Shown: piece by piece, positions 15,809 to 55,240 of the stretch
Position numbering within the stretch: the stretch's first letter is position 1
How the letters are laid out: each line of letters begins with the position of its first letter
Assembly (NCBI RefSeq): GCF_023015805.1
Contig: NZ_JALKBA010000003.1
Location: 124,001-188,000 of the forward strand
Length of the DNA stretch: 64,000 bases
From: Cellulophaga sp. F20128
GTDB taxonomy: Bacteria > Bacteroidota > Bacteroidia > Flavobacteriales > Flavobacteriaceae
Reading direction: 5' to 3'
The notes under the pieces: model-generated
Database searches by the model: none
What the model was told of the DNA's origin: nothing
The model's input: the letters and a program-made list of their open reading frames with translations, nothing else
Translations under genes and position numbers: made by a program

Positions 15809-15816
15809 AATTGAGA

Positions 15817-27600: not shown

Positions 27601-27699
27601 ATTGTGATTGATAGAAAATTAACAGAATGGGAGCGAAAAGGTATTGAAGAATACCTGAGAAGAAAGTGGTTTTCTACCATTGATATTGAATTTAAATAA
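24649..27699 (+). CDS. Secreted M64-type zinc metallopeptidase with carbohydrate-binding-like modules
   Basis: A 1016-residue secreted protein with a signal peptide ending near CAHSQ. The peptidase domain (residues about 50-300) resembles IgA peptidase M64: the zinc motif HEISH at 191-195, with GDEY at 201-204 supplying the third-ligand region, and a cysteine pair MCPPC near 287. It is followed by an Ig-like segment (about 305-395), two SprB-like repeats (GGVPPYSYKWSNGS near 435 and GAVEPYKVQW near 524), a CBM6/35-like module (about 545-667, YEAENGVFD... LKVNG... NYLRVP) and a C-terminal LamG-like domain (about 815-1010, VKLWLDASDIDGNG). It lies between sulfatase genes, so a glycoprotein or protein-linked sulfated glycan is a plausible target. 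Module names other than the peptidase are by appearance. Confidence 0.82.
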   Translation: MRRLFGTIFFVLGVIFCAHSQSNNRSKIAWSEKELDAFIEKSELIPIQITGDKDNRINIVIINQWTSKEKAPYNTPEMRGEFVKDIEESLFAALTYGDERAQTAYANYKEFFNVYGFWAPHTPEFRNGIEIENIDAIREKLFLPWKDEHKGWVTFLIMPNLENGGGGAARNLEARVGNAVIAGNGIGKMLHEISHTCMSLGDEYTTHQTGTDAFPTYSADINYERNKVKWRKWIEPTTPVPTPYEAEYLDKIGAFEGNQYHLVDYFRSTAQGCIMGAGIFDNTEEMCPPCNQRVSMRVYDLVDPINSFVPENTSIEINGQEKIKFSVDHIKPEPNTQVVRWFLNEKLIATGVDELEVEFGAISKYKLVCEITDETPNIRPDPPYARFPKFEVKWNVNNSAPTSNSNKQLSVKLNPKQKDKNATFSHSIESKVIGGVPPYSYKWSNGSTENSLNEVGVGVYDLTVIDSEYSTVTAKSAIYKSSVSGKLSKPKKTAKNKSDIQVVTNVKASEIGKGNGSLVLDVKGAVEPYKVQWKNADYTYGESRIYEAENGVFDISGYEMKSLSSASNNSYVSFKGNEGEVSWNIEVGNSGIYPIDIIYGGIQMNGSTVQLKVNGKLMDKNIQFAKTLPLYTGWAAASVNVFLTEGENKLSLQSIGESIPNINYLRVPTSVTANTLNQKELINLKGGDYDYVVIDADNNTLQGSVQVPEVYPFKINDVKIKSDTNGTISIVAPIDGYTYKWYANDAPLTKGETYEKPLKIGTSFKPQQRGNYYVSAQNKLSKAESSNRIGIAIDDVSNKRAIAISPSEIGNRSVKLWLDASDIDGNGSEDSVLPLRGPVKAWKSKTWRTPNDLFIKYEPNTLNGKGVAAFDKVWVESMENEIKDFHTVIMVYKESSVSTPGTSLYRGLNQFIGKSKDHKKSMFDIESIDDRTKNGEVYLNGEKINPFTTPNPMDYCILTVQLASPSDVGLKRTEGLWEGAIAELIVIDRKLTEWERKGIEEYLRRKWFSTIDIEFK

Positions 27700-34639: not shown

Positions 34640-36358
34640 TTACCAATTAGGGTTCTGATCTATTTTGTTGTTTAAGGTTATCTCCGTTGATGGTATTGGT
34701 AATAAATAGTCTCTTGTAGGGTCAAATCCATAAGTTCCTGTATTTAAGTAATCCCTGAATGGATCAAGGAAGCCATCGTTATTAACCACTAAATTAGGAA
34801 ACTCTGCTTCAATATCAGCGGTGTACGTTGTTCCTGTTGGCCTTTTGTCTACAAAGAGCTTATGCGCTCTCCATCGCATTAAATCATCTAGCCTATTTCC
34901 CTCACCAAATAGCTCTACAACACGTTCTCTTCTAATCTCGTATAAGTAATCTGGCATTGCATATCCATAATCTGGCCATTCCGGATCAACCGTTATGTTT
35001 GTTATATCTAAATCTGGCATCCCAACTCTATCTCTTAATAAGTTAATTGACATATTAACATCAGCTTGGGTTATAGTTCCTAGTTCTGCTTTAGCCTCCG
35101 CGTATATTAAAAGAGATTCCGCGTATCTAAAAATAATATAACCAATGTCTCTAGTTCTTTGATTGTTTAATTCTGCAAACAATTGTTTTGATCTCCATTT
35201 TTCAATGGAATATCCTGTAGGATTACGCGTCATAAAAGGAACTGAAAATAAAACTTCATCACCGTTTATACCAATAAAATCTAAATCCCCAGGTGCCATT
35301 ACGGATTGTGCTAATCTTGGATCGCGATTTTCTTGTATTTCAGCAAGAGTAGCATCTCCTGTAAATTCAGGACTCACAGCTATGGGTAATCCATCTGAAG
35401 CTAGATAGTATTTAGTCATTTCCCGTGTCATTCCATGTGCATTGGGTTGGTTCCACAACGAATTCTGGATGTTGTAGGTTAAATAATCATACTGTTTGTA
35501 CAACATAACTTCTGGATGCCCACTGTAGTCTGTTTGCACAAATAAATTATAATAAGCCTCATTTACATTTCCTGTAGCTAGTGAATAATTTTCAGCATCC
35601 ATTACACTTTTTGCTGCGTCGGCAGCTTGTTGTAAAAAACCTGCTCCATTAGTGCTTCCTGCAAAATCAGTTCCTTGGTGGTATTTTTCCCATGTACCTT
35701 CATACAAGGCAACCCTAGCTTTAAATTGTAAAGCTATATCTTTATTTAATCGTGATGGTTCTTGTAATTCGCTAGCATCCTTCATCTTAGAAATGGCCAA
35801 ATCCAATTCAGCTAAAATAAAATTTGCAACCTCTGTTCTAGGGCTACGCTCACTGTATAAAATGTCATTATCCTCAACATTTAATACTTTAGTAATTATG
35901 GGAAGGTCTCCAAAATTTCTCATTAAATTATAATAAAAGTAAGCTCTAAAAAAGTGACCTTCTCCGATATAATGTTCTACTAAATCACCACTTTCCGCAC
36001 GCGCTGCATTTTCAAGAAAAAAGTTGATTTCACGAACATTTCCCCAGTTCCAGCCTCCGCCAGTTGCTGGTACATTAAGCGTTCCATCTAAACGAGGAGT
36101 TGAAGATCCTCCAAACCACTCAGAAGATTCAATAACAATATCGGTTCCTAAATCTGGCGATGGTGCCGCACCTCCACCAGCCCAGCCTGGAAACTTGCCA
36201 TAAAGGTCATTTAAATACAATTGTAAATCACCTTCTGTCTTCCAAAAATCAGCATTTGAAATTTCATCTAGTGGATTTTTTTCCAATAAATCATCGGTAC
36301 AGGAATTAAAAAATATTCCTATTGTGAATATCAAGAATATATAATATATATTTTTCAT
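34640..36358 (-). CDS. SusD/RagB glycan-binding lipoprotein
   Basis: Outer-membrane lid of the SusC at 36369-39554, 572 residues, classical RagB/SusD type. The lipobox FFNSC gives cysteine 20. The N-terminal region (DDLLEKNPLDEISNADFW) and the TPR-like helices (GEGHFFRAYFYYNLMRNFGDLPIIT) are characteristic. The C-terminal half includes DIGYIIFRYAESLLIYAEAKAE, YEIRRERVVELFGEGNRLDDLMRW and the end YLLPIPSTEITLNNKIDQNPNW (split by eye). It is the last gene of the long minus-strand run, ten bases after SusC, and is followed by a strong terminator. It should bind the sulfated rhamnose-containing glycan inferred from the neighbours. Confidence 0.96.
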   Translation of the reverse strand: MKNIYYIFLIFTIGIFFNSCTDDLLEKNPLDEISNADFWKTEGDLQLYLNDLYGKFPGWAGGGAAPSPDLGTDIVIESSEWFGGSSTPRLDGTLNVPATGGGWNWGNVREINFFLENAARAESGDLVEHYIGEGHFFRAYFYYNLMRNFGDLPIITKVLNVEDNDILYSERSPRTEVANFILAELDLAISKMKDASELQEPSRLNKDIALQFKARVALYEGTWEKYHQGTDFAGSTNGAGFLQQAADAAKSVMDAENYSLATGNVNEAYYNLFVQTDYSGHPEVMLYKQYDYLTYNIQNSLWNQPNAHGMTREMTKYYLASDGLPIAVSPEFTGDATLAEIQENRDPRLAQSVMAPGDLDFIGINGDEVLFSVPFMTRNPTGYSIEKWRSKQLFAELNNQRTRDIGYIIFRYAESLLIYAEAKAELGTITQADVNMSINLLRDRVGMPDLDITNITVDPEWPDYGYAMPDYLYEIRRERVVELFGEGNRLDDLMRWRAHKLFVDKRPTGTTYTADIEAEFPNLVVNNDGFLDPFRDYLNTGTYGFDPTRDYLLPIPSTEITLNNKIDQNPNW

Positions 36359-36368: not shown

Positions 36369-39300
36369 TTAGAAGTTAATATTTAAGCCTAATGAGTATA
36401 CCTTGCTCAACGGATATTGGTCACCAGTACGACCTGTTCTTCCATTAAAAGCTTCAGGATCATAGATCATTAAATCTGTAAACGTTAATAGATTCTCTCC
36501 AGACAAATAGATTCTAGCCTTAGAAATTTTTAATTTTTCAGTTACGTTAGTGGGGAGTGTAAACCCTATTTGAAGATTTTTAAGTCTAGTATATGCTCCA
36601 TTTTGAAGGAATCTAGTTGTTGTAAAACGATAGTTTTTATTATTTTGCCCCGTAAACTGAGAATATGAATTTGGAAAATAAGCATCTGTATTAGGGCCTA
36701 AGGGGTTTGTTGTGTCTTCTGGCCTGAAAAAATCTAAGTGCTCTTCATATACATTAGCGTGTAAAGGTCCGTTTGCTGGTCCTCTAAAAGTTCCAAGTCC
36801 CCTAAGATCCAAATCTCTTTTGGCTACACCTTGTACAAGGAATGAAATGTCAACTCCTTTCCAGGATGCATGACCACTTAAACCAAATTGAAATCTAGGC
36901 GTACTATTTCCTATGATTTTTCTATCCCCTGGATTATCTCTTGTATTGTCTCCGGTATTAATTATGTCGTCACCATCCAAATCTACATATTTAACATCAC
37001 CAGGAAACCAATTTCCAGAGTATATAAACGATTGATCTATGGGATAGTTTGTAACTTCATCTTCTGTCTGGAAAAGACCTGCAGTTTCCATACCCCAAAT
37101 TTCTCCCAATTCTTGTCCAATGTGGTACGCATTTAGAAGTTTTGTTGGATTATTGTATTCTGTTACTCGTCTTCTATAATCAGATAAAACACCTTTTACA
37201 CCGTAAGAAAAATTATCTGAAGTATTTTTCCAGGATACTTCAACTTCCCATCCCTTTGTAGTTATTTCTCCTGCATTGGTTAGTGGAACGCTAGTTCCTA
37301 ATAGTGCTGGGGCTGTAAGACCGGGACCAACAAGGTCGTTATTTACAGTTTTATACCATTCAAAGGTAATGCCTAGTCTTCTGTCTAGTGCCTGTAAGTC
37401 TAACCCTAAATTTAATGTATTCACTTTATCCCATGTTAAATCAACACTAGATAGATTTGGGATTCCCACGGTCCATAACCGTTCTCCACCAAACAACCAA
37501 TTGGACTCCCTTGTTGGTAAATTGGGAATGTATAAATAATTGGCAACGTTTTGGTTTCCGACAGAACCATAAGACCCTCGGAATTTTAAGAATTCAATTT
37601 GATCTTTTAATGGGTAAAATGATTCTTTTGAAACTACCCATCCAGCTGATGCAGAAGGAAAGGTTCCCCATTCCTTGCCTGGCTCAAACCTTGAAGATCC
37701 ATCTCTTCTAATATTCATTTCCAGTAAATATTTTTCATCAAAATTATATTTAAACCTTCCAAAAACACCTTGAGTAGACCAATGTCCTTTTCCATCAGAA
37801 ACTGTTGATTCACCTACTGCTGTACTAATTGAAGGAATGGCATCTGTTAATAAATGAAAAGCTTGGGCATTTAAATTAAAGTAGTTATATACTTCTTGCT
37901 GGTAACCAGCCATTATGTTGAAGTTATGCTTGCCAAAACTCTTTGAATAGTTAGAATAGATGTTTGGAGATAAATAGGTGTTTGTATTAGTGCTCGCTTG
38001 GTAACGCGTATTTAATCGGCTAGTAGAGCTAACTATTGATCCACCTAGACCATCTGGTATTGCAGTTGGTACTGTTGGAAATTCAGATTGACTGCTATTG
38101 TCATTTGTCCTGTAGTTAAGATCAATGTTTGTTACCCAATCTTTGATTGGTTCTAGTGTTAATCTAGGAGAAATAACTAATTGTCTACTTTTATCCATAG
38201 CCCTGTGTAATTCTTGTTCTCCAACTCTTCCGGTCCATACATCTGTGCCAGGGTAAAATGCAGGTTTCGTTGGTTTTAACCTAGTCATAAGTAACATCAC
38301 AAAGGATCTGCCATTACCAGCATGATCTGGATATTCTTGCTTTTCGTACTTATATTTTGCCAAAAAGGAAATATTTGCCCAAGGGGAAATCTTTGCATCA
38401 ATTTTTGCATCAATATTATACCTGTCATATAAATCATCGCCTTGTTTTAATAACCCTTCCTCTTGATAAAGACCACCAGAAAGGTAAAAAGTTAAATCTT
38501 CACCACCACCACTCATACTAAGGTTGTGTTTTAGTCTGGATCCAGAACTTTTAAATAAAAGTGATTCCCAATCTGTAGCTGCAGAAGCATTAAGTCCGTC
38601 TACTCCAAGGTTCCAAGCTTGTCCATTAGGTGTTGGCAATACTTCAGGAGCACTTCCAGGATTTGCTAGATTTTGTGCAATTCTGTCGAGCGCATCATCA
38701 TTAAAGTAAGGACCTGCTCCCATATTAGCCCTTGCTTGGTTCATAGTATGTGCAAATGAAAGTGCATCTGCATTTTGTGGCATATTCAATAAGGAGTTAA
38801 GTGCATAGTTGGTAGAATATGAAAATTTAACACCACTATTCTTTTTACCTCTTTTTGTGGTAATTAAAATGACACCGTAGGCTGCTCTTGCACCATATAT
38901 GGCAGAAGAAGCTACATCTTTTAGTACTGATACAGACGCAATATCATTTGGGTCAATATCGTTTATCCCCATAGGAATACCATCAACTAATACCAAAGGA
39001 GAGGTACTTCCTCCAGCAAATGAACTTAACCCCCTAAGGTTAACATTCATCCCTGCGCCAGGTTCGCCAGTCGCATTTGATGTTGTGATTTGTAAATTTG
39101 GTGCAGCTCCTTGCAAAGCTTGCATCGCATTAGCAACAGGCCTGTCTTCTAATACTTCACTGTTTACAATTGAGATGGCACCTGTTAAATTTGATTTTTT
39201 CTGAGTACCGTAACCTACAACGACTACTTCATCTAGACCAGCTGCATTTTCTTCTAAATTCACAACAATGTTTTTGCGGCCTTTAAGAGGGATTTCTTTA

Positions 39301-39554
39301 GTAGCATAACCTACATAGGATATGATCAATATAGCATTTTCATTGGTGACTTTGATTGTAAATTTACCATCAAAATCTGCTTGTGTTCCATTAGTTGTTC
39401 CTTTTTCTAGAATACTGGCACCTAATAGGGGACCATCGATACTGGAAACTGATCCAGTAATTGTTTGAGCTAAGGCAAAGGCCGTACTAAACAGAAATAG
39501 TAAGACAACAACACCAAGCTTTAACTTACTGTTCATTGGTTCATTTTTTTTCAT
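36369..39554 (-). CDS. SusC-like TonB-dependent glycan transporter
   Basis: Full-length outer-membrane transporter, 1061 residues. A signal peptide ends near FALAQ, followed by a carboxypeptidase D regulatory-like domain (residues about 30-100, ITGSVSSIDGPLLGASI), a TonB-box region LDEVVVVGYGTQ, a plug domain with LVLVDGIPMGINDIDPNDIA and AIYGARAAYGVILITTK, and the barrel ending PLSKVYSLGLNINF. It lacks the N-terminal STN domain seen in the transporter at 61094, so it is probably not controlled by an ECF/FecR pair. An ATG six codons downstream is an alternative start. The upstream region carries a 21-bp element shared with the rhamnose operon and a palindrome. Confidence 0.96.
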   Translation of the reverse strand: MKKNEPMNSKLKLGVVVLLFLFSTAFALAQTITGSVSSIDGPLLGASILEKGTTNGTQADFDGKFTIKVTNENAILIISYVGYATKEIPLKGRKNIVVNLEENAAGLDEVVVVGYGTQKKSNLTGAISIVNSEVLEDRPVANAMQALQGAAPNLQITTSNATGEPGAGMNVNLRGLSSFAGGSTSPLVLVDGIPMGINDIDPNDIASVSVLKDVASSAIYGARAAYGVILITTKRGKKNSGVKFSYSTNYALNSLLNMPQNADALSFAHTMNQARANMGAGPYFNDDALDRIAQNLANPGSAPEVLPTPNGQAWNLGVDGLNASAATDWESLLFKSSGSRLKHNLSMSGGGEDLTFYLSGGLYQEEGLLKQGDDLYDRYNIDAKIDAKISPWANISFLAKYKYEKQEYPDHAGNGRSFVMLLMTRLKPTKPAFYPGTDVWTGRVGEQELHRAMDKSRQLVISPRLTLEPIKDWVTNIDLNYRTNDNSSQSEFPTVPTAIPDGLGGSIVSSTSRLNTRYQASTNTNTYLSPNIYSNYSKSFGKHNFNIMAGYQQEVYNYFNLNAQAFHLLTDAIPSISTAVGESTVSDGKGHWSTQGVFGRFKYNFDEKYLLEMNIRRDGSSRFEPGKEWGTFPSASAGWVVSKESFYPLKDQIEFLKFRGSYGSVGNQNVANYLYIPNLPTRESNWLFGGERLWTVGIPNLSSVDLTWDKVNTLNLGLDLQALDRRLGITFEWYKTVNNDLVGPGLTAPALLGTSVPLTNAGEITTKGWEVEVSWKNTSDNFSYGVKGVLSDYRRRVTEYNNPTKLLNAYHIGQELGEIWGMETAGLFQTEDEVTNYPIDQSFIYSGNWFPGDVKYVDLDGDDIINTGDNTRDNPGDRKIIGNSTPRFQFGLSGHASWKGVDISFLVQGVAKRDLDLRGLGTFRGPANGPLHANVYEEHLDFFRPEDTTNPLGPNTDAYFPNSYSQFTGQNNKNYRFTTTRFLQNGAYTRLKNLQIGFTLPTNVTEKLKISKARIYLSGENLLTFTDLMIYDPEAFNGRTGRTGDQYPLSKVYSLGLNINF

Positions 39555-39624
39555 AGTTTTCTTTTAAATTATGTATTGAGTTTGTTTGCAATGGGCTCAA
39601 GGTAAAACTTCAACTGTTAAAATG

Positions 39625-39645
39625 TATCCTGTACTGTCCTGTTTT
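39625..39645 (-). promoter_or_regulatory. 21-bp element shared with the rhamnose operon promoter
   Basis: Read on the minus strand: AAAACAG, one variable base, then ACAGTACAGGATA, matching 12242-12262 at 20 of 21 positions. Its near end is 70 bases upstream of the SusC start codon, in the same orientation relative to the gene as the other copy. Confidence 0.65.
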
Positions 39646-40509: not shown

Positions 40510-41979
40510 TTAATGAGTATATGGAATAGTCCCTGTTTTATCCACTGTATACCCCCATTTTTTAATGTATTCGGGGCCAGGTAGGAATTGGTCATTATTG
40601 GCTTTCAATTTTTGATCTAATTGCTTGTCTAATGTAGCTTGTACGCTTGTATACTTTTCGTTTCCAATAAGATTATTTTCTTGGTATGGATCTTCTTGGT
40701 TATCGAACAAAAGCCACGGGCCTTTTAAATCTCGAGCATAGGTAAATCTAGGGGTCTTTAACCCTCTGTATTCGCGTCCGCCTCGACCTCTATTCCATGA
40801 GCCGAAAGGTTGTATGGACCTAATAAGACCTGCATTTTCTATATCCTCGTTATTTGTAATAAGAGCACTAAAGTCGGTACCTTCTATGGTATTGGGAATA
40901 GCAATTGAGGTAAGGCCTAATAGTGTTGGTAAAATATCTTCTGAGTTAATAACTGTTTGTTTTATACTCGGTTTAATGTCAGCATTGGAAGGTAATTTCA
41001 GTAAAAAAGGAACTCCAATTGATTCATCATAGGGTTGTTGTTTTTTTAATTCACCATGAGAACCAAGGAGATCACCATGATCCGAAGTGAATAGGACAAT
41101 GGTGTTATCCCATTGGCCATTCTCTTTGAGTTCTTTTTTTATTTTACCGATCATATCATCCAAAGCGGCTATATGAGCATAATAACCAGCGAGATCTTTT
41201 TTGGCTTTTTCTTTTAGGTTGTCCGGTACATTTTGTCGAAGTTGTATCTTTTCTGGGTCAAACCGATTTCTATAGGCCTCCGGTGCTGTATGATAGGGGC
41301 CATGGGGTGTACCATACGAAAGGACCATCAAATACGGGTTGTCGGCGGTTTTATGTTCCTTGATAAAGTGTAATGCAGCATCGGTCTGATCAAAAGTATC
41401 ATAATTCTCCCATATTTTCCTGTTGGGATCGTCATTGTCATAATATACAGAATGGTTATAATCATGGGTACATTCATTTCCGTTCCAAAATTGAAAACCC
41501 TGTCTTCTGGGACCTTCTGGTACATTCTGTAACCTACCATGACCATCTAAATGCCACTTGCCAATATAGCCCGTGTTATAATCCTGCTCTGCAAATATTT
41601 CAGCCATAGTCAAGGCATTGGGGTTCAGTTGCAGGTCGTTCATAAAAATACCTGTAGTTAATGGTAACTGCCCTGTTAAAAGAGCGGCTCTAAAAGGCGT
41701 ACAAACGGGAGTGCCAGAAATGGCATTTTTGAAGTTGATGCTTTCGGAGGCTAAATTGTCAAGGTTGGGTGTTACAGCGTTAGGGTCACCAGCATATCCC
41801 GTGGCTTGGGCGCGCCATTGATCGGTTAATATAATAAGAACATTGGGTTTCGTGGTATGCTTAACAATTGTATTTTTTTTAGGTGTTTCTTTGCAAGAAA
41901 CACCTAAAAAAAACAGGCTAACAATGAGAAGGCGTACGTACAGTAAGGGTTGAAATCTTCTGGTAATTGTAAGTTTCAT
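40510..41979 (-). CDS. S1-family sulfatase, lipoprotein
   Basis: Putative sulfatase of 489 residues with lipobox GVSC (cysteine 29). PNVLIILTDQWRAQATGYAGD opens the metal site with a DQWR type of start, seen in choline-sulfatase-like and several glycan sulfatases. The formylglycine cysteine is C93 in CTPFR followed by AALLTG. YIGKWHLDGHG, SYGTPHGPYH and FTSDHGDLLGSHGELKKQQPYDES complete the site; the DHGDLLGSHG form is typical of the subgroup with GDxxGSH. It precedes the remnant and SusC/SusD genes in the long minus-strand run. Confidence 0.94.
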   Translation of the reverse strand: MKLTITRRFQPLLYVRLLIVSLFFLGVSCKETPKKNTIVKHTTKPNVLIILTDQWRAQATGYAGDPNAVTPNLDNLASESINFKNAISGTPVCTPFRAALLTGQLPLTTGIFMNDLQLNPNALTMAEIFAEQDYNTGYIGKWHLDGHGRLQNVPEGPRRQGFQFWNGNECTHDYNHSVYYDNDDPNRKIWENYDTFDQTDAALHFIKEHKTADNPYLMVLSYGTPHGPYHTAPEAYRNRFDPEKIQLRQNVPDNLKEKAKKDLAGYYAHIAALDDMIGKIKKELKENGQWDNTIVLFTSDHGDLLGSHGELKKQQPYDESIGVPFLLKLPSNADIKPSIKQTVINSEDILPTLLGLTSIAIPNTIEGTDFSALITNNEDIENAGLIRSIQPFGSWNRGRGGREYRGLKTPRFTYARDLKGPWLLFDNQEDPYQENNLIGNEKYTSVQATLDKQLDQKLKANNDQFLPGPEYIKKWGYTVDKTGTIPYTH

Positions 41980-42039
41980 ATTATCAAATTTCTATGAGCT
42001 ATTAATTATTTTTTTTCTATTGTGTTTATCCGTAAAGTT

Positions 42040-43461
42040 TTACTCTACTTCCCAGGCATCTGTTCTAAAAGAAGATGCAGGCAAACCTTCTGTATTGTGT
42101 AATTCCCCAATTACAAAGTCGTCAAAGGCATAGCGAACTGCTACGGGCTCTTTTACAAAGGCCGAAAACAACGTAATTCCTTGCCAATTAATAGTGGCGT
42201 TAGCTGGATAAAAACGCTTGTCTTTCCCTGCAATTTTAAAATTAACAAGTGGTTTTCCAAAGGTGTTTAAGCCATTTTTGGCATGATCAAAGGATAATTT
42301 GACAACAGACCCTTCAATTTTCATTTCTTTTAAAACAGGCCCTGAATAGGCAATGCCCTTAAGATTGTATGTTTTAGCTAAGGCTAGATATGCCAATCGT
42401 TCACCCCCTACTTGTTTGTTAGCAGGGTGAATAATATGCTCTTCGCCAATATCCATTAAACTCACCATACCTGTATTGGTCGTCTGGCTTAAGGTTTGTA
42501 GTTGTGCCTCTCTTAATAAGGCAGAATTTAAACCGGCAGTTCCATAGTTATAGGGAGCAATTTGCACATAATAGAAAGGGAATTCGCCAATGTTCCATTC
42601 GTTTCGCCAATTGTTGATCATACCAGCTAACAATGCACTATACTTTTCAGGATTATTACGATTAGACTCTCCTTGGTACCATAAAACGCCTTTCATTGCA
42701 AAGCCTTTCATTGGATGTATCATACCATTAAAGAGAGCCGCAGGAATCCTTTGAGTTACTCTCCCTTTAGCATCTAGTCCAGGTTTTGGCACCCAATCAA
42801 AAGATTGAAGACCACTCTCGCTAATCCATGGTTCAATAGCCGTTCCACCCCAACTTGAGCTTACGATGCCCACGGGTACTTGTAATACTTCTTGAAGCAT
42901 TTTTGCAAAATGATAGGCCGTAGCACTAAAATTAACGGCATTTTCGGGATTACTAGCTAACCACTCTCCTGAAAAATCATCTAGTTTCTCAAGGCTAGCC
43001 TTTAATTTTACATTGAAAAATCGAATCTCATTATTGGTAGAAGTCGCAATAGTTTTATTGGCATCCAATACAGGTTGGTTTACAAGACCTTTTAATCGCA
43101 TATACATATTAGACTGTCCAGAGCAAACCCATACTTCTCCAATTAAAATATCGGTTAGTGTTATTGGAGTGCCGTCTGTGATTCTAATATCATAAGGGCC
43201 ACCTGCACTAGGAGTTTTAACTTTTAAGTGCCACTTTCCTTTTCTGTCCGCCTTTGTGGTATAGGATTTACCATCCCAAGAAGTGGTTACTTCCACATTT
43301 TTATTAGGGTCTGCCATACCCCAAATTGCGGCATCTGTCTGTTGTTGCAATACCATATGACTTCCAAAAATAGAAGGTAGTTTTATTTCTGCAGTTGCCA
43401 TATGGGTAATGCAGAATAGCACAATCAGTAAGAAACTATTTGGTATTGATTTTTTAAACAT
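42040..43461 (-). CDS. Sialate O-acetylesterase-like SASA esterase, secreted
   Basis: A 473-residue exported esterase (signal ending MATA). Residues about 25-105 are an N-terminal beta domain typical of the long SASA type (LPSIFGSHMVLQQ). The SGNH core has S117 in SGQSNMYM, GWLxG replaced by SSSWGGTAIEPW, WYQGESN in block III, and DIGEEHIIHPANK with the Asp/His pair. It probably removes O-acetyl groups from hexose or deoxyhexose residues. It lies 60 bases from the sulfatase downstream and 33 bases after the clan-D-like protein, within the same run. Confidence 0.92.
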   Translation of the reverse strand: MFKKSIPNSFLLIVLFCITHMATAEIKLPSIFGSHMVLQQQTDAAIWGMADPNKNVEVTTSWDGKSYTTKADRKGKWHLKVKTPSAGGPYDIRITDGTPITLTDILIGEVWVCSGQSNMYMRLKGLVNQPVLDANKTIATSTNNEIRFFNVKLKASLEKLDDFSGEWLASNPENAVNFSATAYHFAKMLQEVLQVPVGIVSSSWGGTAIEPWISESGLQSFDWVPKPGLDAKGRVTQRIPAALFNGMIHPMKGFAMKGVLWYQGESNRNNPEKYSALLAGMINNWRNEWNIGEFPFYYVQIAPYNYGTAGLNSALLREAQLQTLSQTTNTGMVSLMDIGEEHIIHPANKQVGGERLAYLALAKTYNLKGIAYSGPVLKEMKIEGSVVKLSFDHAKNGLNTFGKPLVNFKIAGKDKRFYPANATINWQGITLFSAFVKEPVAVRYAFDDFVIGELHNTEGLPASSFRTDAWEVE

Positions 43462-43494
43462 ACTTAATATTTTTAATTAAAAATAGAATTCGTT

Positions 43495-45906
43495 TTACTC
43501 CCTGCTTAATGTTAGTTTTATTTTTTTAAAGGGTTGTGGATAAGCCGTAATCCATAATTCAGGATTAAAACTGAGGTTTTCTTTATCATACCCCATCACA
43601 AAAACATCAATTTCTTTTCCTACCATACTAGCGTCAAGTGGAATATAATAGGTGTAGTTACTGTCTCTGCGGGCGGTCATAAACTCCCAGTTATTCGCTG
43701 GGTAAGACGATGCTCTGTCTGGTGCGCCAATATAAGTATCTCCCATTTTGGCAGCAGCATAGGCGCCTTCTACACCGTGTTTTCCGTTTAACGCAATACA
43801 GAGGTAACTTCCTTCAGCAATTTCGTCTAAAACTATTTTAGACTTCCATACTTTTTGTGCCTTTTTTTTGCTTGGATGAGCGAACAAGTTAGACGCTCTC
43901 CATAAGCTTCTGTCTACTTTTTTTCCGTTGGCGATTCCTTCAATTTCTACCAATTGCTGTGGACTATTTTTAAATCGTAGGTAACGTACTTTTTTTCCGA
44001 TGCTTATTTCTGATTTTATCGCAGCTAAATAGGTTAATTCTTCCCAGTGTACCAAATCGGTAGATATTTCAACAAAATTTCCTTCGCCGATTAATAAAGG
44101 CTGTAATCCAAACTCATTAGGAACACTGATTAGAAGTTTATCTAAAAAAGTGATTTCTCCTAAATCTAAGCGAAAAGCTCCTCCTTCAATACGAGTATCT
44201 ACGCGATACCGCTTAGAAGGCCAAAACCCAGTGTCTAAATCTCCATCAAACAAATTTTTATCCCAGATACCTCTATTCACAAATGCATCTTGATTGAAAA
44301 ATGCATCTCGTGCAGCTTTAACCGCTGGTATTGTGGTTTCGCCAGAACGTTCTAAAGAACGTACTTCTAAGGCATTGTTGTCTGCAGCAAACATGCTTGC
44401 TTCGTAGATGGCTTCAACATCAACCGGAATGGTTGTTTCTGCAAATGAATTAAGTTTGCGGTGATAGTTGTTTTTTAATTTGGTTCCTGAAAAATTAACT
44501 TTTAATTTTTTTCCATCCGCTAATTTTTGGGTGTTTTTTCCATTGATTTTAGCGGAACTAAATAAATTGTTGTTAAGGAGCTCAATGTTTGCAGTAGTTC
44601 CAGGCATTCCTAAAATTTCAATTTCAATTGGAGAACCAGGGATATTTTTAACGGTTTGGAAATTTGTTCCAGCTAAAATAGGATCGTTATCGGCTTCGGT
44701 AGTAGCAATAAATAGAGCTGATCTAAACGGAAGCACATCCACAGGAATGGTCTCACCTTTTGAAAATGTACCAATTAATTTTTCACTAGGATGTACTTGA
44801 AGTAATGTAATTTTTCCATCAGCTTTAAGTCCAATTTCTTCATCCAACTTTACAGAATACGTTGAAGTTTCCCAATTTAAGTTTCTAAGGCTTATTAATT
44901 GGGTTTTTCCATTTCCTCTAGACACAGCATTTGGTCCATAGGATTTATCTAACACCATACCATCTAGAAGGATATCTCTATACTTTTTGTGTAAATTATA
45001 GATGTATGCTAATTTTGAAAATTCATTCTCATTTAGTAACCAAGGGTTGCCATATATTTCTGGAGAAAGAATTAGGGCCCTGTTAAATGCCTGTAATATT
45101 AAATCATCTTCCCAATAATCGATACAAGACGAAATACATACCCCATGGTCTTCTGTTAAACGTTGTAGTTCTGGTACAAGTCCTCTAGACAATGCAGCAG
45201 CTCTGTTGTGAGGAGCTGTTACATTATTAGTCATGTGAATGTCTATATACGTTTCATTGCCTCCAAATAAGAAAGTTGTGGCATACGGTTTTGCTTTATC
45301 AAGACCCAGTCTGTGGTTTAATAAAATTAAATCAGGACTATGCACACGCGCTTCTTTCATCATCTTTATAAAAGCATCTTCTTTTTCTGGTCGTAATGGG
45401 CCGCAAACGGCATCAAATTTAAAGAGTGCAAATTCATAATCTCTACACAACTTAACCATTTCGTCAATACGCTTTTTTTCTTCTTCAGGCGTGTCTCCAA
45501 AACCATCAGGTCCACCCCAAACTCCTAAGCGTATACCAAGATCTTTTGCTTGCTTGTAAATAGGGTCAAAACCATTGGGGAATTGCTTTTTAAATCGATC
45601 TGAATAAATACTGCCATAGAAATTCTTACCATCAATAGCGCCGGCATCCATAGCATAAATGTCTAATTGCATCCCATACTCACTTTTAAGCCAACCAAAG
45701 AATTCTAGGTTAATTCTTGTGTGTTCATCAGTGGGCCCTTCATTTGTATTGTTGATCCAGCTAAAATATTGTGCTTTAGATGGTGTTCTTTCATCAGCAC
45801 CAGGGAAAACTTTTTCTTGCGCGGTTAAGCTTAAAAAAGAAATAAATACAAGTAAAAAAAGAAAAGGCTTCTTGTTAAAAAAGGACTGTAATGTTGTTTG
45901 TGTCAT
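43495..45906 (-). CDS. Putative secreted glycoside hydrolase, clan-D-like (alpha-galactosidase-like barrel) with discoidin-like module
   Basis: An 803-residue exported protein (signal ending SLTAQ) not assignable by eye to a named CAZy family. Residues about 45-330 look like a GH27/GH36-type TIM barrel: MQLDIYAMDAGA, LGIRLGVWGGPDGFGD, and FALFKFDAVCG with D165 at the position of a clan-D nucleophile. SSCIDYWEDDL (D263, D267) is a candidate acid/base region. Then come a beta domain (about 340-400), an unclassified middle, a discoidin/F5-F8-like segment (about 555-660, LDTGFWPSKRYR... RLDLGEITFLDKLLISVP) and another beta module. It lies beside the GH78 gene, so cleavage of a galactoside or deoxyhexoside of the same glycan is likely. 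Confidence 0.7.
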   Translation of the reverse strand: MTQTTLQSFFNKKPFLFLLVFISFLSLTAQEKVFPGADERTPSKAQYFSWINNTNEGPTDEHTRINLEFFGWLKSEYGMQLDIYAMDAGAIDGKNFYGSIYSDRFKKQFPNGFDPIYKQAKDLGIRLGVWGGPDGFGDTPEEEKKRIDEMVKLCRDYEFALFKFDAVCGPLRPEKEDAFIKMMKEARVHSPDLILLNHRLGLDKAKPYATTFLFGGNETYIDIHMTNNVTAPHNRAAALSRGLVPELQRLTEDHGVCISSCIDYWEDDLILQAFNRALILSPEIYGNPWLLNENEFSKLAYIYNLHKKYRDILLDGMVLDKSYGPNAVSRGNGKTQLISLRNLNWETSTYSVKLDEEIGLKADGKITLLQVHPSEKLIGTFSKGETIPVDVLPFRSALFIATTEADNDPILAGTNFQTVKNIPGSPIEIEILGMPGTTANIELLNNNLFSSAKINGKNTQKLADGKKLKVNFSGTKLKNNYHRKLNSFAETTIPVDVEAIYEASMFAADNNALEVRSLERSGETTIPAVKAARDAFFNQDAFVNRGIWDKNLFDGDLDTGFWPSKRYRVDTRIEGGAFRLDLGEITFLDKLLISVPNEFGLQPLLIGEGNFVEISTDLVHWEELTYLAAIKSEISIGKKVRYLRFKNSPQQLVEIEGIANGKKVDRSLWRASNLFAHPSKKKAQKVWKSKIVLDEIAEGSYLCIALNGKHGVEGAYAAAKMGDTYIGAPDRASSYPANNWEFMTARRDSNYTYYIPLDASMVGKEIDVFVMGYDKENLSFNPELWITAYPQPFKKIKLTLSRE

Positions 45907-45965
45907 TGTTTTTAATTCTAATGATTCGGTATTGTTAAGTGTAGCGCACTAATATGGGTATGTAC

Positions 45966-48422
45966 TTATTTTGGTGCTATAACAATGGTGTAATTGCCTT
46001 CGTTGAGTTCAAAATCAGCCGTTTTTAGCTCTTTATTAAAGGGTGCACCATCTTTGATAATGTTAATTTCTTGAGTAGTATTGAATTCCAATTGAATCAA
46101 AGCACTACTCGCTGCAGGAATTACAAAGGTGTATTCATATGAGTTAGGGGCAAGCTTCTTCCAATTGGATACAATGGTTCCATAAGGTGAATTGTATTTT
46201 GTATTCACAAATTCAAGTCCTTCAGGGGTGGCCGGTGTTAAAAAGAATCTTTTAAAACCAGGGTTTTCAGGATCGGGTTGTATACCACCTAACCATCTGT
46301 AAAACCATTCAGTTACAGAACCAAACATAGGGTGGTTGTTAGAAAATACGCCATCACTTTCTTTCCAAGTTTCCCACAGGGTGGTGGCTCCATTATCTAC
46401 CATAAACCCCCATCCTGGGTATGTTCTGCTATTTACAATATCAAATACAGTATCGGGTGAAATGTTTTTAGAAGCGGCTTCTAAAACGTATTTGGTGCCA
46501 AAAATGCCTGTATTGAAATGTCCGGAAGGGCCGTTGTTTATTGCTTTTTGTAAAGAATCTTTGGCAGCTCCAAGTTCAGCTTCTGGTATAATATTATGAT
46601 AAAGTAAGGTAGAAAATAAAGTCTGACGGTTTATTTTATTGGTTATAGGAGTGTCCCAAAATTTTGTTTTAATCAATCCTCTTAAATGTTTAGCAAGATC
46701 CCTATATTTAGATGCATTTTCTTCGTCGTTCATGACCTTAGCAAAGGTTTCCATAATTTCAGCACTTTGCAGGTAATGAGCTGTACCTGTTAATTGGACA
46801 GGCACGGGTTCTAAAGACTCATGATCGCTCAAACCTTTTTCAACCAAACCGTCAGGGTGAATTCTGGCTACTTTTTCCATCCACGTTTTATTCTTTTCAT
46901 ACATTTCCTTTACAAAATCGGTGTCATTGTAATAGAGGTATAAGTAGTACTGCGTGGTTAAATAAGCAGACTCCCAGCTGATACCACAGTATTGAACTCC
47001 TGCAAAAGGGGCAGTATCTACAAAGGAAGAATCTTTCATCGCGTCTACCCAGTCATAAACTGTTTTGCGGTAAATTCCGCGCATATCATAGTTGTTGATA
47101 TAGGCTTCGCTGGTTGCATTTAAATCGCCCCCATAACCAAATTTTTCTCGGGCAGGGCAATCAGACTGTACACTGATTAGATTTGATAAAAATGACCTTT
47201 GTGTGATATCTTGGATGTTATTCAGTAAGGCTGATGAACTGTTAAAACTATTGGAAGTATCAACACTAGTATTAAAGAAAAGACCTTGGATGTCTTGTAG
47301 TTTTGGTTCTTTTTCTAAGCCGATAATTTCCATATATCTGTAAGTATGGTATGTAAATTGGGGTTGAAACCAGGCTTCTTTAGAATCACCAATAATATAG
47401 CTATCAGTTTGCCAAGCGATATCTGGAGCACCAGGTCCGCCCACACCTTTTCTTTTAATTTGTCCTATAACAGTGGTCATTGGGTTTAATGTTCCGTCCT
47501 CATAAATACGCTCCCCAAACCTGAAATTGATACTATCTCCAGGCTTTCCGCTTAGTTTAATTTTATAAGTACCCGTAAAATTAACACCCATATCTACAAT
47601 ATAAACTCCCTTTTCAGGACTAGTAATGCCAGTGGGTTTTATAGTTTGAGTGACTTGTACTGGTGGAAAAAATGCCTTCTGTAATTCGCCGCCTGGGCCA
47701 TCGCTAAGTTTGGCAAAAGTCCATTGCTTATCGTCATAACCAACGGTGTTCCAATCTGCTATTTCTTGTCGTGCATCATAAACAGTCCCAATATAAACAC
47801 TGTTTTTTTGAATGGGACCATACGTGTACTTCCATGTGTTGTCTGTACTTATTTCTTCAGTTTCTCCATTAGCATACTCAATTAATAGTTTTGCCGTAAG
47901 TGTAGGTTTTCCTACTGTAAGGTCTTTCCTTAAGTTTCTGCGTCCCCACTTTCTTAAAGGAAGAGGATTGTAAAAACCATTCCCAAGGCTAACTCCTAAA
48001 CAGTTGGCGTTCTTGGTTATTTGGGCTGTGATATCGTACTCAGAAAAATAAATACGTTTGCTAAAATTGGTCCAAGCAGGGTCTAGAATGTTTTTTCCTA
48101 TTGGCTCACCGTTTATGGTAGCTTGGTAGTATCCAGCCGAAGTTATTAATAAACGAGCTGATGAAATTGAACTCTTTGGAGTAAACTCTTTCCGAAACAA
48201 TGGAGCAGGATGCGTTAAGTAAAACAAAGAATCAGTTTCTGGTAATTTTCTGTCGTACGTAATCCATTTGGCATCCTCTAATTTTAATTTTGCCACTTCA
48301 TCGCTCAGGGCAAGTAAAGGTTTTTGAGGTTCTGAACTAAAAAATGTTGGTACTATGAAACCAATAAGTACTACGACAACCAGTAGTAAAATTATGAGCG
48401 ATAATCTGTTTTTGTTTTTCAT
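45966..48422 (-). CDS. GH78 alpha-L-rhamnosidase
   Basis: Inverting exo-alpha-L-rhamnosidase, 818 residues. The N-terminus is a single hydrophobic helix without an obvious lipobox, so it may be secreted or anchored in the inner membrane facing the periplasm. Domains in order: N-terminal beta domains (about 45-330, with LLITSAGYYQATINGEPIG and YDARQE), an (alpha/alpha)6 barrel (about 400-740) and a C-terminal beta domain. The family signature DCPAREKFGYGGD gives D421, E426 (general acid) and D433; E684 in TLWETWKE is the general base. GSVTEWFYRWLGGI is a further signature. This enzyme links the run to the cytoplasmic rhamnose operon. Confidence 0.95.
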   Translation of the reverse strand: MKNKNRLSLIILLLVVVVLIGFIVPTFFSSEPQKPLLALSDEVAKLKLEDAKWITYDRKLPETDSLFYLTHPAPLFRKEFTPKSSISSARLLITSAGYYQATINGEPIGKNILDPAWTNFSKRIYFSEYDITAQITKNANCLGVSLGNGFYNPLPLRKWGRRNLRKDLTVGKPTLTAKLLIEYANGETEEISTDNTWKYTYGPIQKNSVYIGTVYDARQEIADWNTVGYDDKQWTFAKLSDGPGGELQKAFFPPVQVTQTIKPTGITSPEKGVYIVDMGVNFTGTYKIKLSGKPGDSINFRFGERIYEDGTLNPMTTVIGQIKRKGVGGPGAPDIAWQTDSYIIGDSKEAWFQPQFTYHTYRYMEIIGLEKEPKLQDIQGLFFNTSVDTSNSFNSSSALLNNIQDITQRSFLSNLISVQSDCPAREKFGYGGDLNATSEAYINNYDMRGIYRKTVYDWVDAMKDSSFVDTAPFAGVQYCGISWESAYLTTQYYLYLYYNDTDFVKEMYEKNKTWMEKVARIHPDGLVEKGLSDHESLEPVPVQLTGTAHYLQSAEIMETFAKVMNDEENASKYRDLAKHLRGLIKTKFWDTPITNKINRQTLFSTLLYHNIIPEAELGAAKDSLQKAINNGPSGHFNTGIFGTKYVLEAASKNISPDTVFDIVNSRTYPGWGFMVDNGATTLWETWKESDGVFSNNHPMFGSVTEWFYRWLGGIQPDPENPGFKRFFLTPATPEGLEFVNTKYNSPYGTIVSNWKKLAPNSYEYTFVIPAASSALIQLEFNTTQEINIIKDGAPFNKELKTADFELNEGNYTIVIAPK

Positions 48423-48504
48423 GTATTCCGTATTGAAATTATTTTTTTATACTCCTACTCAGGGTAGTCATTGTTGCTATCGATCTGTTGTAAAACAGTC
48501 TTTA

Positions 48505-51117
48505 TTAATTAGAAATTACCTTGGTATCTCCCCAGTTTCCAAACACTTTTTTACCAGAAAAATCTAGTAATATAAAGTTTAACCCGCTAACATCGATATC
48601 TATTTTAACAGGAGCATCTCCTTTTTTCATAGGGCCACTATCAAAAAGTACACGTCCTCCAAACTTTTCTTCAACCATAACTTGAAAACGGCCTGTTGCT
48701 CCTTTGGGTGAATTTTTACCCAAAGAAACCACGGCTTTAAAACGATCGGCTTTTCCGTTCAGGTTATACATCATTTCTGAATTGCTTTTAACCCCAAACC
48801 CTTTTTTATATTTCTTACGACCTATTTTCAGATGCTTTCCATGAAAATTTTTATCTTCAACTGGGGCATTTCCTTTTTTAAGCATATAATAGATATCACT
48901 TAAATAGGTGATTCCTGACTGGGTTACTGTATATTTTTCCTCAGACACTGGGATTGGCCCGCCTATAGGTGTACTGCCAACTGTGCCAATTTTAAGTAAT
49001 AGGTGTTCGTGTTTACCAAGGTTTTTAGTTGTAAAGGATCCATTAAATTCTCCAAGGTCTTTTTCTAACCAAAGGTCTCTTACATTTTGTGAACCCATTA
49101 CGCCAATTTGTTCCCAAAGAACGGTTATAGCTGCTATTTTTTCACTCTTGTTTAATAGTAAAACAGCTGTAGTACCATCGGCTAGCGGCTTATTGTAGAT
49201 TTCAATACTATCTTTATTGTAGACTCTATATCCTTGATGTGCCCTTGTGTCTTGATTGATAGCGATAACTTCAGAGGCAGTAAGAATATTTTTAACGTCA
49301 TCAGACATCACGCGTAAATCATTACCCGCCATAATTGGTGCTGCTAAAATACTCCATAGGCTAAAATGTGCTTTATCTTCTACAGTACTTTTTAGGTTTC
49401 CAACCTGCAACATATCAGGATCATTCCAACTATCGGGCCCAGCAAATTGCCACAAACCATTAAAGGCAGGGTGAATGGCACCATCCCCTCCAGAGGTTTC
49501 AGCACATCGGTACACAGATTGGATTCTTGGAAAAATATCACCTGAAGTACGCCAAAGTTGTCCGTAGTTTTTTCCGCCCCAAGCCCAAGCACCACTTCCA
49601 AAATCGGAAATACTCAAAATCATAGGTCTGCCAGTGTTTAAGATTGCCTTGTGGTATACATCAAAATCCTCTGTAGACAGTCTCCCGTTTTTTCTAGCAA
49701 AACAAGCATCTAATTTAATATAATCTACGCCCCACTCAGCAAAAGAATCCATATCTGTTTGTTCGTGTTCAAAACTACCCGGTAAATTCTGACAGGTTAA
49801 ATCTCCTCTACATTCGTAAATTCCGTATTTAAGGCCCTTGCTATGGATGTAATCACCAATCGCTTTCATTCCACTAGGGAATTTAATTGAATCAGCTACC
49901 AACTGTCCCTTTTCATTTCTTTCTGCAGCCATCCAAGCGTCGTCTAAAACCAAATATTTATAGCCTGCATCTCGCATACCAGAACTCACCATAATATCGG
50001 CAATTTCCTTTATTTTGTTTTCGTCGATATCCTTTTCAAAGGCATTCCAGCTATTCCATCCCACGGGTGGGGTAGGAGTTAGGTAGTTGTTGTCATAGCT
50101 GGCAACAGTTCTAGTTTTTTGAGAAATATTTTGAGCAGTTTGTGCCTTTTTTAAGGCTACCATAGCTTTGCCCATACCTTCTCCAATTTGAAGGTAAGCT
50201 TCCGCATTTCTATTCCAGTGATAAAATTGGTTTGCAGGTGAATTAGCGCTGTCAATATAAAAATCTCGTGTGTCCACAACCGATACGTTATCCTTAAATT
50301 CCGGGTAGTTCGTCATGGCCAACTGTGCATTCATTATGGAAAGTGCTCTTGGGTCCTTGTCTGCCCAACCCTTCATTCCTGTAGTTGCAATTACTACAGG
50401 GAGATTAGGTGTTCCTAGATCCTTGCGAACATCTTTAATAAAATGCACCAAATTTTCTTCATAGTATGGGTTTGCACTTTTTGTAACCCTATCATTCCAT
50501 CCTTGATGCCAGCCAAAGCCTGAAATTTCATAGCCTTCGCCTTTGTAGCCAGGAACATAATTTTGCAGACTGTCTAATACTTGATAAATGTTAGAAAGCA
50601 TTTTAACATAATAATAGCCAGTATCCTTTTCTTTAGCAGGCAATTTATGATACCCATTTGGGCCTACCGCGCTAGGGGAACGAAAATCTACCGCTATGGT
50701 TTTGCCACCCCAAGAAGTTTTAATAAGTAGGACTTTAGACCCATATTGATCACCTACTACGTTTCCAAATTCTAACTCGGGTCCAATTGTATGGTCCAAT
50801 GCTCCGTAACCGGCACTTAATTTTCCGGTTTTTAATTTTTCAAATTTGTCTTGGGTGTAAATAAAAACATCATCTCTTTTTGCCCAATCCCCATTGTCTT
50901 GGCGTAGGTGCTTGTAGGTACCCGTTTTATCGTTGTTAACTACCCAATTAAGATTGCCTTTCGCTCCTTTTTCCATTTCTCCGTGCCCTTGCATGTTCGA
51001 TTGCCCAGCCAAAATAAAAACCTTAATTGGTTCTTGTGCGTTGGCTTTTAAACCAAACAAGAGGGTGATTAGCAATAAAAAACAATGCTTGAAATAGGAT
51101 GTAGTTTGTCTGTTCAT
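48505..51117 (-). CDS. SASA esterase - GH27 alpha-galactosidase - NPCBM fusion, secreted
   Basis: An 870-residue bifunctional enzyme with a signal ending KANAQ. Residues about 30-335 are a SASA-type esterase (S40 in AGQSNMQG, GWHQGWND). Residues about 345-715 are GH27: PPVGWNSWNAF, LDDAWM, nucleophile D470 in YIKLDACFA, and D568 in WNDPDML as acid/base, then LAAPIMAGNDLR. The C-terminal 150 residues resemble an NPCBM-type galactose-binding module (KKGFGVKSNSEMMYNLNG, FKAVVSLGK). It would deacylate and remove alpha-D-galactose (or a related alpha-sugar) from the same oligomer. It lies between the triple-hydrolase and GH78 genes in the long run. Confidence 0.92.
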   Translation of the reverse strand: MNRQTTSYFKHCFLLLITLLFGLKANAQEPIKVFILAGQSNMQGHGEMEKGAKGNLNWVVNNDKTGTYKHLRQDNGDWAKRDDVFIYTQDKFEKLKTGKLSAGYGALDHTIGPELEFGNVVGDQYGSKVLLIKTSWGGKTIAVDFRSPSAVGPNGYHKLPAKEKDTGYYYVKMLSNIYQVLDSLQNYVPGYKGEGYEISGFGWHQGWNDRVTKSANPYYEENLVHFIKDVRKDLGTPNLPVVIATTGMKGWADKDPRALSIMNAQLAMTNYPEFKDNVSVVDTRDFYIDSANSPANQFYHWNRNAEAYLQIGEGMGKAMVALKKAQTAQNISQKTRTVASYDNNYLTPTPPVGWNSWNAFEKDIDENKIKEIADIMVSSGMRDAGYKYLVLDDAWMAAERNEKGQLVADSIKFPSGMKAIGDYIHSKGLKYGIYECRGDLTCQNLPGSFEHEQTDMDSFAEWGVDYIKLDACFARKNGRLSTEDFDVYHKAILNTGRPMILSISDFGSGAWAWGGKNYGQLWRTSGDIFPRIQSVYRCAETSGGDGAIHPAFNGLWQFAGPDSWNDPDMLQVGNLKSTVEDKAHFSLWSILAAPIMAGNDLRVMSDDVKNILTASEVIAINQDTRAHQGYRVYNKDSIEIYNKPLADGTTAVLLLNKSEKIAAITVLWEQIGVMGSQNVRDLWLEKDLGEFNGSFTTKNLGKHEHLLLKIGTVGSTPIGGPIPVSEEKYTVTQSGITYLSDIYYMLKKGNAPVEDKNFHGKHLKIGRKKYKKGFGVKSNSEMMYNLNGKADRFKAVVSLGKNSPKGATGRFQVMVEEKFGGRVLFDSGPMKKGDAPVKIDIDVSGLNFILLDFSGKKVFGNWGDTKVISN

Positions 51118-51135
51118 AGTGGAAATTATAATATT

Positions 51136-53706: not shown

Positions 53707-53750
53707 TCTGTATGTTCTTAAGACATTAAATTGTGTTCAAAAAAAAAGGT

Positions 53751-55205: not shown

Positions 55206-55228
55206 ATATAATATTTTCCGGATTATTT

Positions 55229-55240
55229 TGTACTGTATAA
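55229..55240. promoter_or_regulatory. AGTACA-type motif upstream of the sulfatase at 53751-55205
   Basis: TGTACT at 55229-55234 (AGTACA on the minus strand) followed by GTATAA. It lies within a T-C-C-G-G-A-T-T-A-T-T-T-T-G-T-A context that resembles 24556-24572. The function is inferred only from recurrence. Confidence 0.3.

Follow-up and report, generated by a model that had tools for sequence, protein, structure and literature searches.

Known sugar regulators of GntR/LacI build, such as AraR of Bacillus and FucR of Bacteroides, are repressors, and Bacillus AraR combines a LacI-like sensor domain with operators that have GTAC cores. AusR, a GntR-family protein that represses alginate catabolism in Zobellia galactanivorans, has a sensor domain of the FadR type (FCD). 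In Bacteroides thetaiotaomicron, FucR (BT1272) is described as a GntR-family fucose regulator with a single predicted target operon, and ManR is likewise of the GntR type (PMC3878776). The rhamnose operon of the same species is controlled by RhaR (BT3768), an activator of the AraC family (PMC3870299; PMC3878776), and the families named for rhamnose regulators in PMC3870299 are AraC, DeoR and LacI; in a word search the main text of that paper lacks the string 'Flavobacteri', and 'GntR' was not found in it. The Zobellia alginate repressor is recorded by title in the reference list of PMC9296495. The open literature, with subscription papers and RegPrecise outside the scope of the search, yielded neither a GntR-type rhamnose regulator of Flavobacteriia nor a motif of the kind described below.

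The locus described here lies in a 64-kb stretch of DNA from Cellulophaga sp. F20128, the whole of which was analysed and is called the window. Its rhamnose operon (12318-19464, + strand) begins with rhaEW (12318-14423), the gene termed rhaD in the preliminary description, which encodes a bifunctional rhamnulose-1-phosphate aldolase/dehydrogenase (NCBIfam, above cut-off). The genes that follow on the + strand encode an L-rhamnose isomerase-like protein (14528-15808; best NCBIfam match TIGR02629, below its cut-off), an FGGY kinase that is probably a rhamnulokinase (15811-17190; Pfam, with NCBIfam below cut-off), an NCS1-like membrane transporter that is a candidate rhamnose transporter (17236-18648; weak NCBIfam match, with orthologues of 76-91% in the rha loci of relatives) and, at the end of the operon, a sugar isomerase-like TIM barrel (18697-19464; Pfam). 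At some distance, on the - strand, lie genes for a SusC-type TonB-dependent transporter (36369-39554; Pfam, NCBIfam) and, 10 bp 3′ of susC, a SusD-type lipoprotein (34640-36358; Pfam, ORFs), which are presumably co-transcribed. Three other proteins of the window deserve mention: a ROK-family regulator with a MarR-like HTH is encoded between the rha operon and sulfatase genes (19845-21152); an 803-aa protein without a Pfam match at E 0.001, inside the sulfatase/rhamnosidase block (43495-45906), is a candidate for a new glycan-active enzyme; and a protein of 1016 aa (24649-27699), which matches peptidase M64 and, weakly, SprB/Ig-like domains, is an odd neighbour for the sulfatase genes that surround it.

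Divergent from rhaEW is the gene of a 344-aa regulator, here called RhaR-G (11062-12096, - strand), for which Pfam and an AlphaFold2 model give a GntR winged helix followed by a LacI/periplasmic-binding-protein-like sensor. The N-terminal winged helix is clear (PF00392, E 1.5e-12, residues 13-76), and the C-terminal PBP-like sugar-binding domain just exceeds its cut-off (PF13377, 26.6 bits against 26.5); neither an FCD sensor domain nor an AraC HTH domain is among the Pfam matches. The model has a mean pLDDT of 89.4 and a pTM of 0.69, and its best PDB folds are LacI, SghR, RbsR, PurR and CcpA (TM 0.5-0.6 of the query). The recognition helix hardly varies, covariation having been judged by eye. 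The predicted LacI-like sensor domain fits a small sugar ligand, and the obvious candidate for the effector is L-rhamnose or an early intermediate of the pathway. The same genome encodes a GntR-type paralogue, 39-41% identical, beside galK/galT (G000:C81:13549-14538, in locus L091), and the GntR/LacI-type build therefore seems to be reused per sugar within one genome.

Two matching elements precede rhaEW and susC. The 21-mer AAAACAGCACAGTACAGGATA lies at 12242-12262 on the + strand, with a gap of 55 bp to the ATG of rhaEW (12318), and AAAACAGGACAGTACAGGATA lies at 39645-39625 on the - strand, with a gap of 70 bp to the ATG of susC (39554). They differ only at position 8 (20/21 identical), are separated by 27.4 kb and have the same orientation relative to the gene. 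The preliminary description, which had reported such a near-identical pair at 55-70 bases from the start codons and more than 27 kb apart, with ACAG at 5-base steps and a GTAC core, is thus accurate on each of these points. With up to 3 mismatches to the 21-mer, only these two matches occur in the window, and shuffling of the window gave a mean of 0.01 matches and two matches in 0 of 100 shuffles. The entire 4.17-Mb genome holds no further copy with up to 2 mismatches; two extra matches, each with 3 mismatches, are both within ORFs. The sequences flanking the two copies differ. The whole 21-mer was rejected as the conserved unit, for its left AAA varies among relatives and conservation is limited to a 17-bp core, which reads CAGCACAGTACAGGATA in the rhaEW promoter (12246-12262, + strand), where it is conserved in the rhaEW promoters of relatives, and CAGGACAGTACAGGATA in the susC promoter (39641-39625, - strand). 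A position weight matrix (PWM) was built from 21 of the 23 rhaEW sites inspected, the degenerate sites of G037 and G081 being left out and no site being available from G054 and G041 (none at rhaEW) or G019 (contig end). The rhaEW site of the window, which is one of the 21 training sites, scores 28.2, and the susC site, which is outside the training set, scores 27.3; the best score per sequence in 60 simulations of 64 kb (first-order Markov), confined to windows that have GG at the two fixed positions, was 11.6 on average and 22.7 at maximum. Exactly 20 bp past each core stands a predicted -7 box of the form TAnnTTTG, namely TACATTAG at 12283-12290 (+ strand, 1 mismatch) and TACCTTGA at 39597-39604 (- strand, 2 mismatches). 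These boxes predict transcription starts at about 12295 (+ strand) and 39592 (- strand). A role as an RNA leader element was rejected, because the site is upstream of the predicted -7 box.

The element is found at rhaEW or rhaT beside orthologues of the regulator in Flavobacteriaceae and in Lewinella/Neolewinella. In a survey of 198 genomes, including that of the window, regulators of at least 52% identity (close regulators) number 31 copies in 22 genomes, and the next group is at most 46% identical. The rhaEW gene occurs in 26 of the 198 genomes, that is, in all 22 genomes with a close regulator and in 4 of the 176 others, whose regulators are 40-44% identical. Regulator and rhaEW share a contig and lie within 9 kb of each other in 18 of the 22; the exceptions are G078 and G088, where they are far apart, and G012 and G019, where they are on separate contigs. 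When the rhaEW promoters of the window and 21 regions were compared, 20 of the 22 had an 18-base core, ACAGNACAGTACAGGATA, with up to 4 mismatches, upstream in the orientation of the gene. The G012 promoter has 1 mismatch to this core; G037 and G081, whose regulators are 43-44% identical, have 6 and 5, and no site was found directly before rhaEW in G054 and G041 (regulators 40-44% identical), nor anywhere in the 20-kb region of G041. A composite pattern, CAGNAYAGTACAGGATR-N20-TANNTTNG with up to 3 mismatches, matched 179 times (reversed pattern used as control: 4) across the 22 genomes that have a close regulator, each of which holds 1 to 20 matches, and 23 times in the other 176 genomes (control 14). 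At least one match is present in 22/22 of the former vs 21/176 of the latter (Fisher p 1e-17, uncorrected for relatedness). A looser composite pattern gave 67 matches in the genome of the window vs 36 in the control.

The same picture emerges from 80 named loci of Zobellia, Arenibacter, Polaribacter, Maribacter, Flavobacterium, Lewinella, Neolewinella and others, which were retrieved via the regulator gene. In 68 of them, the 600 bp on the divergent side of the regulator contain a site scoring at least 11.5; 45 of these sites have a -7 box (up to 1 mismatch) at 20 bp, 1 has it at 21 bp and 22 at neither distance, all but one of the last being in Flavobacterium loci (21 of 22). The region upstream of rhaEW is readable in 67 loci, the other 13 having no readable rhaEW start, and contains a site scoring at least 13 in 46 of the 67, at least 4 of which share contigs with PWM training sites; in 44 of the 46 a -7 box (up to 1 mismatch) stands at +20. 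Two more loci, L280 and L258, have weaker rhaEW sites (12.1 and 11.8) with the -7 box likewise at 20. The remaining 19 are Flavobacterium loci in which rhaEW (63-65% identical) lies 53-69 bp after rhaT, and in 21 of the 24 loci of this genus the site stands before rhaT, on the divergent side of the regulator; RhaT was identified by Pfam in one of them (L240). In a set of 28 regulator loci, a site lies within 300 bp of the regulator in 12 of the 17 that have rhaEW in the stretch; among the 11 without rhaEW, 3 have such a site and 6 have none anywhere in the stretch. Some paralogues of the regulator may therefore read other sites. A lack of conservation upstream of orthologous rhaD and susC genes had been named beforehand as a result that would speak against a common operator. 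As far as rhaEW is concerned, the counts of 20/22 and 46/67 argue for conservation, and the motif search over upstream regions of this genome and its relatives, proposed at the same time, shows by PWM and pattern scans that the element recurs at rha promoters.

The outcome for the susC site is different. Under a search of the 198 genomes at E <= 1e-200, in which the best 3 candidates per genome were scored, seven homologues of the window SusC were found, at 40-48% identity, and these are probably not true orthologues. None of the seven (L310-L316) has the element upstream, and the best-scoring match near them, 14.7 in L315, is located behind the gene. Conservation at orthologues of the window susC was accordingly rejected. 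Because the seven homologues lack the site although four of their genomes (G028, G047, G066 and G111) carry a close regulator, the element at the window susC looks like a local acquisition. The joining of SusC genes to the rhamnose regulon via the element is nevertheless recurrent with SusC proteins other than that of the window. In G014, of the same genus, a SusC gene (L007) whose product is 35% identical to the window SusC has the site, and so do genes for four SusC proteins that are 75-88% alike in Arenibacter troitsensis, Maribacter antarcticus, a Maribacter MAG and Zobellia barbeyronii. Tandem copies of the element, overlapping in one case, were seen at the promoters of these four orthologous genes (L233:9422, L259:9104, L271:9943 and L284:8115).

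The main feature missed in the preliminary description is the rigid 20-bp spacing between the element and the -7 box. A scan of 145 loci with just the 17-bp matrix, at a score of 13 or more and with the spacing left free, gave 63 rhaEW sites, PWM training sites among them (spacing played no part in training), and 116 sites upstream of other ORFs. A TAnnTTTG box with up to 1 mismatch stood at exactly +20 in 58 of the 63 and in 58 of the 116, against a mean count per other offset (5 to 40) of 0.54 and 1.46, respectively. Sites without an ORF have the box at +20 in 5 of 19 cases. Perfect boxes before other genes were counted 16 times at +20 and once at any other offset between 12 and 28. At non-rhaEW sites scoring at least 20, the box stands at +20 in 37/60 with up to 1 mismatch and in 49/60 under the loose criterion of up to 2. 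Of the 11 high-scoring exceptions, the 9 that were inspected comprise 4 SusC promoters with tandem copies, in all of which the nearer copy is 20 bp from a -7 box, 1 site inside a gene and 4 unexplained sites; the other two are a register-shifted reading of a counted site (L014) and a site inside an ORF (L022). The sequence of the 20-bp spacers is not conserved; in Lewinella/Neolewinella it is GC-rich, and the spacing still holds.

The promoter geometry is thus unusually rigid, with the site over the slot of the -33 box at a fixed distance from the -7 box, as for a class II activated promoter. TTG is the -33 consensus; at spacers of 17-23 bp it was found in 0 of 116 sites, the fixed bases of the motif nearly forbidding such a TTG. 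Across 116 sites selected for a box at 20, positions -49 to -33 and the box carry high information content, with low values between and outside them, and the asymmetric GGATA end of the element, at -37 to -33, is among its best-conserved parts. In this numbering the core spans about -49 to -33, with its centre at about -42/-43, because the -7 box occupies -12 to -5 in Flavobacterium psychrophilum (PMC9723704) and the spacer is 20 bp long; for the -33 site as such, see PMC12632263.

Overall, a sugar-sensing regulator very probably docks at the element and in this way joins rhamnose breakdown with the uptake of rhamnose-rich glycans. We consider it probable that RhaR-G binds the 17-bp core and acts by class II activation, with one rhamnose regulon for catabolism and uptake; adjacency and co-occurrence point to the GntR-type protein as the putative binder, and the geometry suggests the activating sign. 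In this model, the 17-bp core CRGNAYAGTACAGGATA, as a rule exactly 20 bp before TAnnTTTG, would fill the slot of the -33 box; a RhaR-G dimer with bound L-rhamnose or a close metabolite would occupy the core and touch RNA polymerase (sigma region 4), substituting for the missing -33 contact; and catabolism and outer-membrane uptake would be switched on jointly, as class II activation. As part of the same explanation, and with the same degree of confidence, the regulon of this genome would probably take in, besides the rha operon, susCD in the polysaccharide locus and, elsewhere, a gene for a GH78-like rhamnosidase. For a stronger form we see an even chance: RhaR-G, acting as an obligatory class II activator, would bind in place of the -33 box, at one rigid distance from the -7 box, at up to ~20 promoters per genome in Flavobacteriaceae and Saprospiraceae-type Bacteroidota, coupling rhamnose catabolism, SusC uptake, ulvan/rhamnan-degrading enzymes and, in some genomes, gluconeogenesis (FBPase).

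The near-constant distance to the promoter box points to an activator. The predicted -49 to -33 footprint, at one helical phase to the -7 box in most promoters and without a -33 TTG, which the motif itself nearly forbids, matches class II activation; a repressor would have no need of such an arrangement. It is counted against activation that the 21 Flavobacterium rhaT sites have no box with up to 1 mismatch at 20 or 21, 2-mismatch boxes being present at both distances, that the box of the window susC has 2 mismatches, and that half of the non-rhaEW sites (58/116) are without a box of up to 1 mismatch at +20. The same regulator and regulon could work in the opposite sense, the apo-protein blocking sigma at -33 until rhamnose or a phosphorylated metabolite releases it, which we regard as unlikely. 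The site does overlap the -33 region of the predicted promoter, where blocking would occur, the fold of the sensor domain resembles that of the LacI repressor, and AraR and FucR both repress; PDB entry 4egy, the DNA-binding domain of AraR, is itself named 'Arabinose metabolism transcriptional repressor'. A GntR-family repressor is also on record for alginate catabolism in Zobellia (PMC9296495, title in the reference list). However, a repressor does not need one exact distance, and yet 20 bp dominates in rhaEW and unrelated promoters alike; the element leaves no room for a -33 TTG, so that the promoters would be weak without help, and conservation is among the best at the asymmetric GGATA end. 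The preliminary description had called the element the operator of a GntR/LacI-type protein: comparative genomics supports the link to that protein, and an activator, favoured by the phasing with the -7 box, is more likely than the repressor that the term suggests.

Whether RhaR-G is the binder is a separate matter, on which the symmetry of the motif bears. GntR regulators with a LacI/PBP-type sensor domain recognize a pseudo-palindromic GT-Nx-AC site, and the motif includes an GTNNNNNAC dyad, G(T)N5AC, centred on core position 7, in addition to pentamer direct repeats. Symmetry scores are 5.1 and 4.3 for 5-bp and 10-bp direct repeats vs 2.9 for the palindrome. A GntR dimer would be expected to prefer a palindrome, and the stronger direct repeats count against RhaR-G; they would suit another co-inherited activator, for example of the AraC type, with a different role for the GntR-type protein. 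The rhamnose activators of Bacteroides and E. coli are of this type (PMC3870299). Because regulator and rhaEW are nearly co-distributed, some other protein inherited along with them would show much the same co-occurrence, which by itself does not single out the regulator. Such an activator is nonetheless quite improbable, given that the GntR-type gene is beside the site in 68 of the 80 named loci, which were retrieved via that gene, and, in 18 of 22 genomes, no farther than 9 kb from rhaEW. The ROK protein of the window was rejected as the binder, as it has no match near rha in 40 regions of relatives.

That the element is instead the -35-like part of promoters read by an alternative sigma factor, with no activator involved, is highly improbable. 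Rigid spacing is typical of sigma contacts and ECF sigma genes are among the targets, but 17 conserved bases reaching up to -49 are too many for the contact of sigma region 4, the element is tied to the regulator gene, and the downstream box is the TAnnTTTG of the primary sigma factor (PMC9723704). Chance likeness, or recent copying of one promoter into another, has a negligible probability: the window does hold only two strong copies, but two matches arose in 0 of 100 shuffles, the flanks differ, including the 20-bp spacers, the element is conserved across families, and chance similarity is refuted by the shuffles, the composite-pattern counts and the conservation in named loci.

The putative regulon of RhaR-G extends beyond rhaEW and susC. 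Targets were annotated from the composite matches listed, with up to 2 mismatches (plus two with 3), the 20-bp spacing thus being imposed. G018, G078, G088, G111, G117, G123, G177 and G190 are outside these matches, though other retrieved loci contain some of their sites; 20 sites without an ORF were excluded from annotation, and 88 non-rhaEW entries became 87 after removal of one duplicate. Among the matches listed, these 87 targets include 15 with SusC-type plug domains, 9 sulfatases, 6 GH78, 3 GH106 and 3 GH88 proteins, 4 PL28 ulvan lyases and 2 proteins with sigma-70 region 4, together with single examples such as rhaM (L-rhamnose mutarotase), RhaT, UxaC (glucuronate isomerase) and a sugar kinase; the element also stands before a second regulator copy in locus L064. 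The set reads as a predicted rhamnose-glycan (ulvan/rhamnan) regulon. Because rhamnose-glycan genes are among the other targets, the tie between glycan uptake and rhamnose catabolism, first suggested for the window, appears to recur. In the genome of the window itself there are three composite matches, at rhaEW, at susC and on another contig, where the site, found by the pattern alone, lies 114 bp before a gene for a protein with a GH78 catalytic domain; in the sulfatase/esterase/GH78 block of the window (40510-56997), the PWM scan found no site scoring at least 11.

Some of the targets are of interest in their own right. The element precedes proteins with sigma-70 region 4 in two genomes (L024:692-1252, an ECF sigma factor, and L207:384-944), hinting at a cascade from rhamnose to further promoters via such proteins. 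A class 1 fructose-bisphosphatase is encoded behind the element at L068:8348-9346, and a protein with a similar start is likewise placed near position 2312 of L289, suggesting that gluconeogenesis is co-regulated with rhamnose genes. In L017, an FGGY kinase and a glucuronate isomerase (1-1380 and 1683-3020) have two divergent elements in their shared intergenic region, and these enzymes would handle other ulvan sugars.

With a 17-bp word and a fixed 20-bp spacer, rhamnose-responsive transporters and enzymes can be predicted from sequence alone, including SusC genes distant from the rhamnose operon and PL28 ulvan lyases. Such predictions can help to assign substrates to SusC proteins, and they allow one to test whether the end-product sugar, rather than an oligosaccharide, induces ulvan and rhamnan loci. 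If RhaR-G does activate, the rigid geometry would also illustrate clearly how promoters are activated when the primary sigma factor is the unusual one of Bacteroidota.

The regulon would be new, as far as the open literature searched shows, and its parts are ordinary and of known kinds. FucR, too, is of the GntR family and governs a deoxyhexose pathway within the phylum; it differs in that one operon is predicted for it vs catabolism, SusC transporters and glycan-degrading enzymes here. RhaR (BT3768) shares control of a rhamnose operon in Bacteroidota, but it belongs to an unrelated protein family and serves a single operon, and RhaR-G has no AraC domain. AusR, likewise of the GntR family, controls how a marine flavobacterium uses a polysaccharide; it differs in its FCD sensor and in being a repressor by title, vs the LacI-like sensor and the inferred activating role here. 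AraR has the GntR DNA-binding domain in common with RhaR-G, the sequence match being confined to the HTH, whereas it represses arabinose genes in another phylum. The paralogue beside galK/galT is also GntR-type, similar in length and associated with sugar genes, but its operon is one for galactose. Finally, LacI-type rhamnose regulators are alike in that they, too, join rhamnose genes with rhamnose-oligosaccharide genes (PMC3870299).
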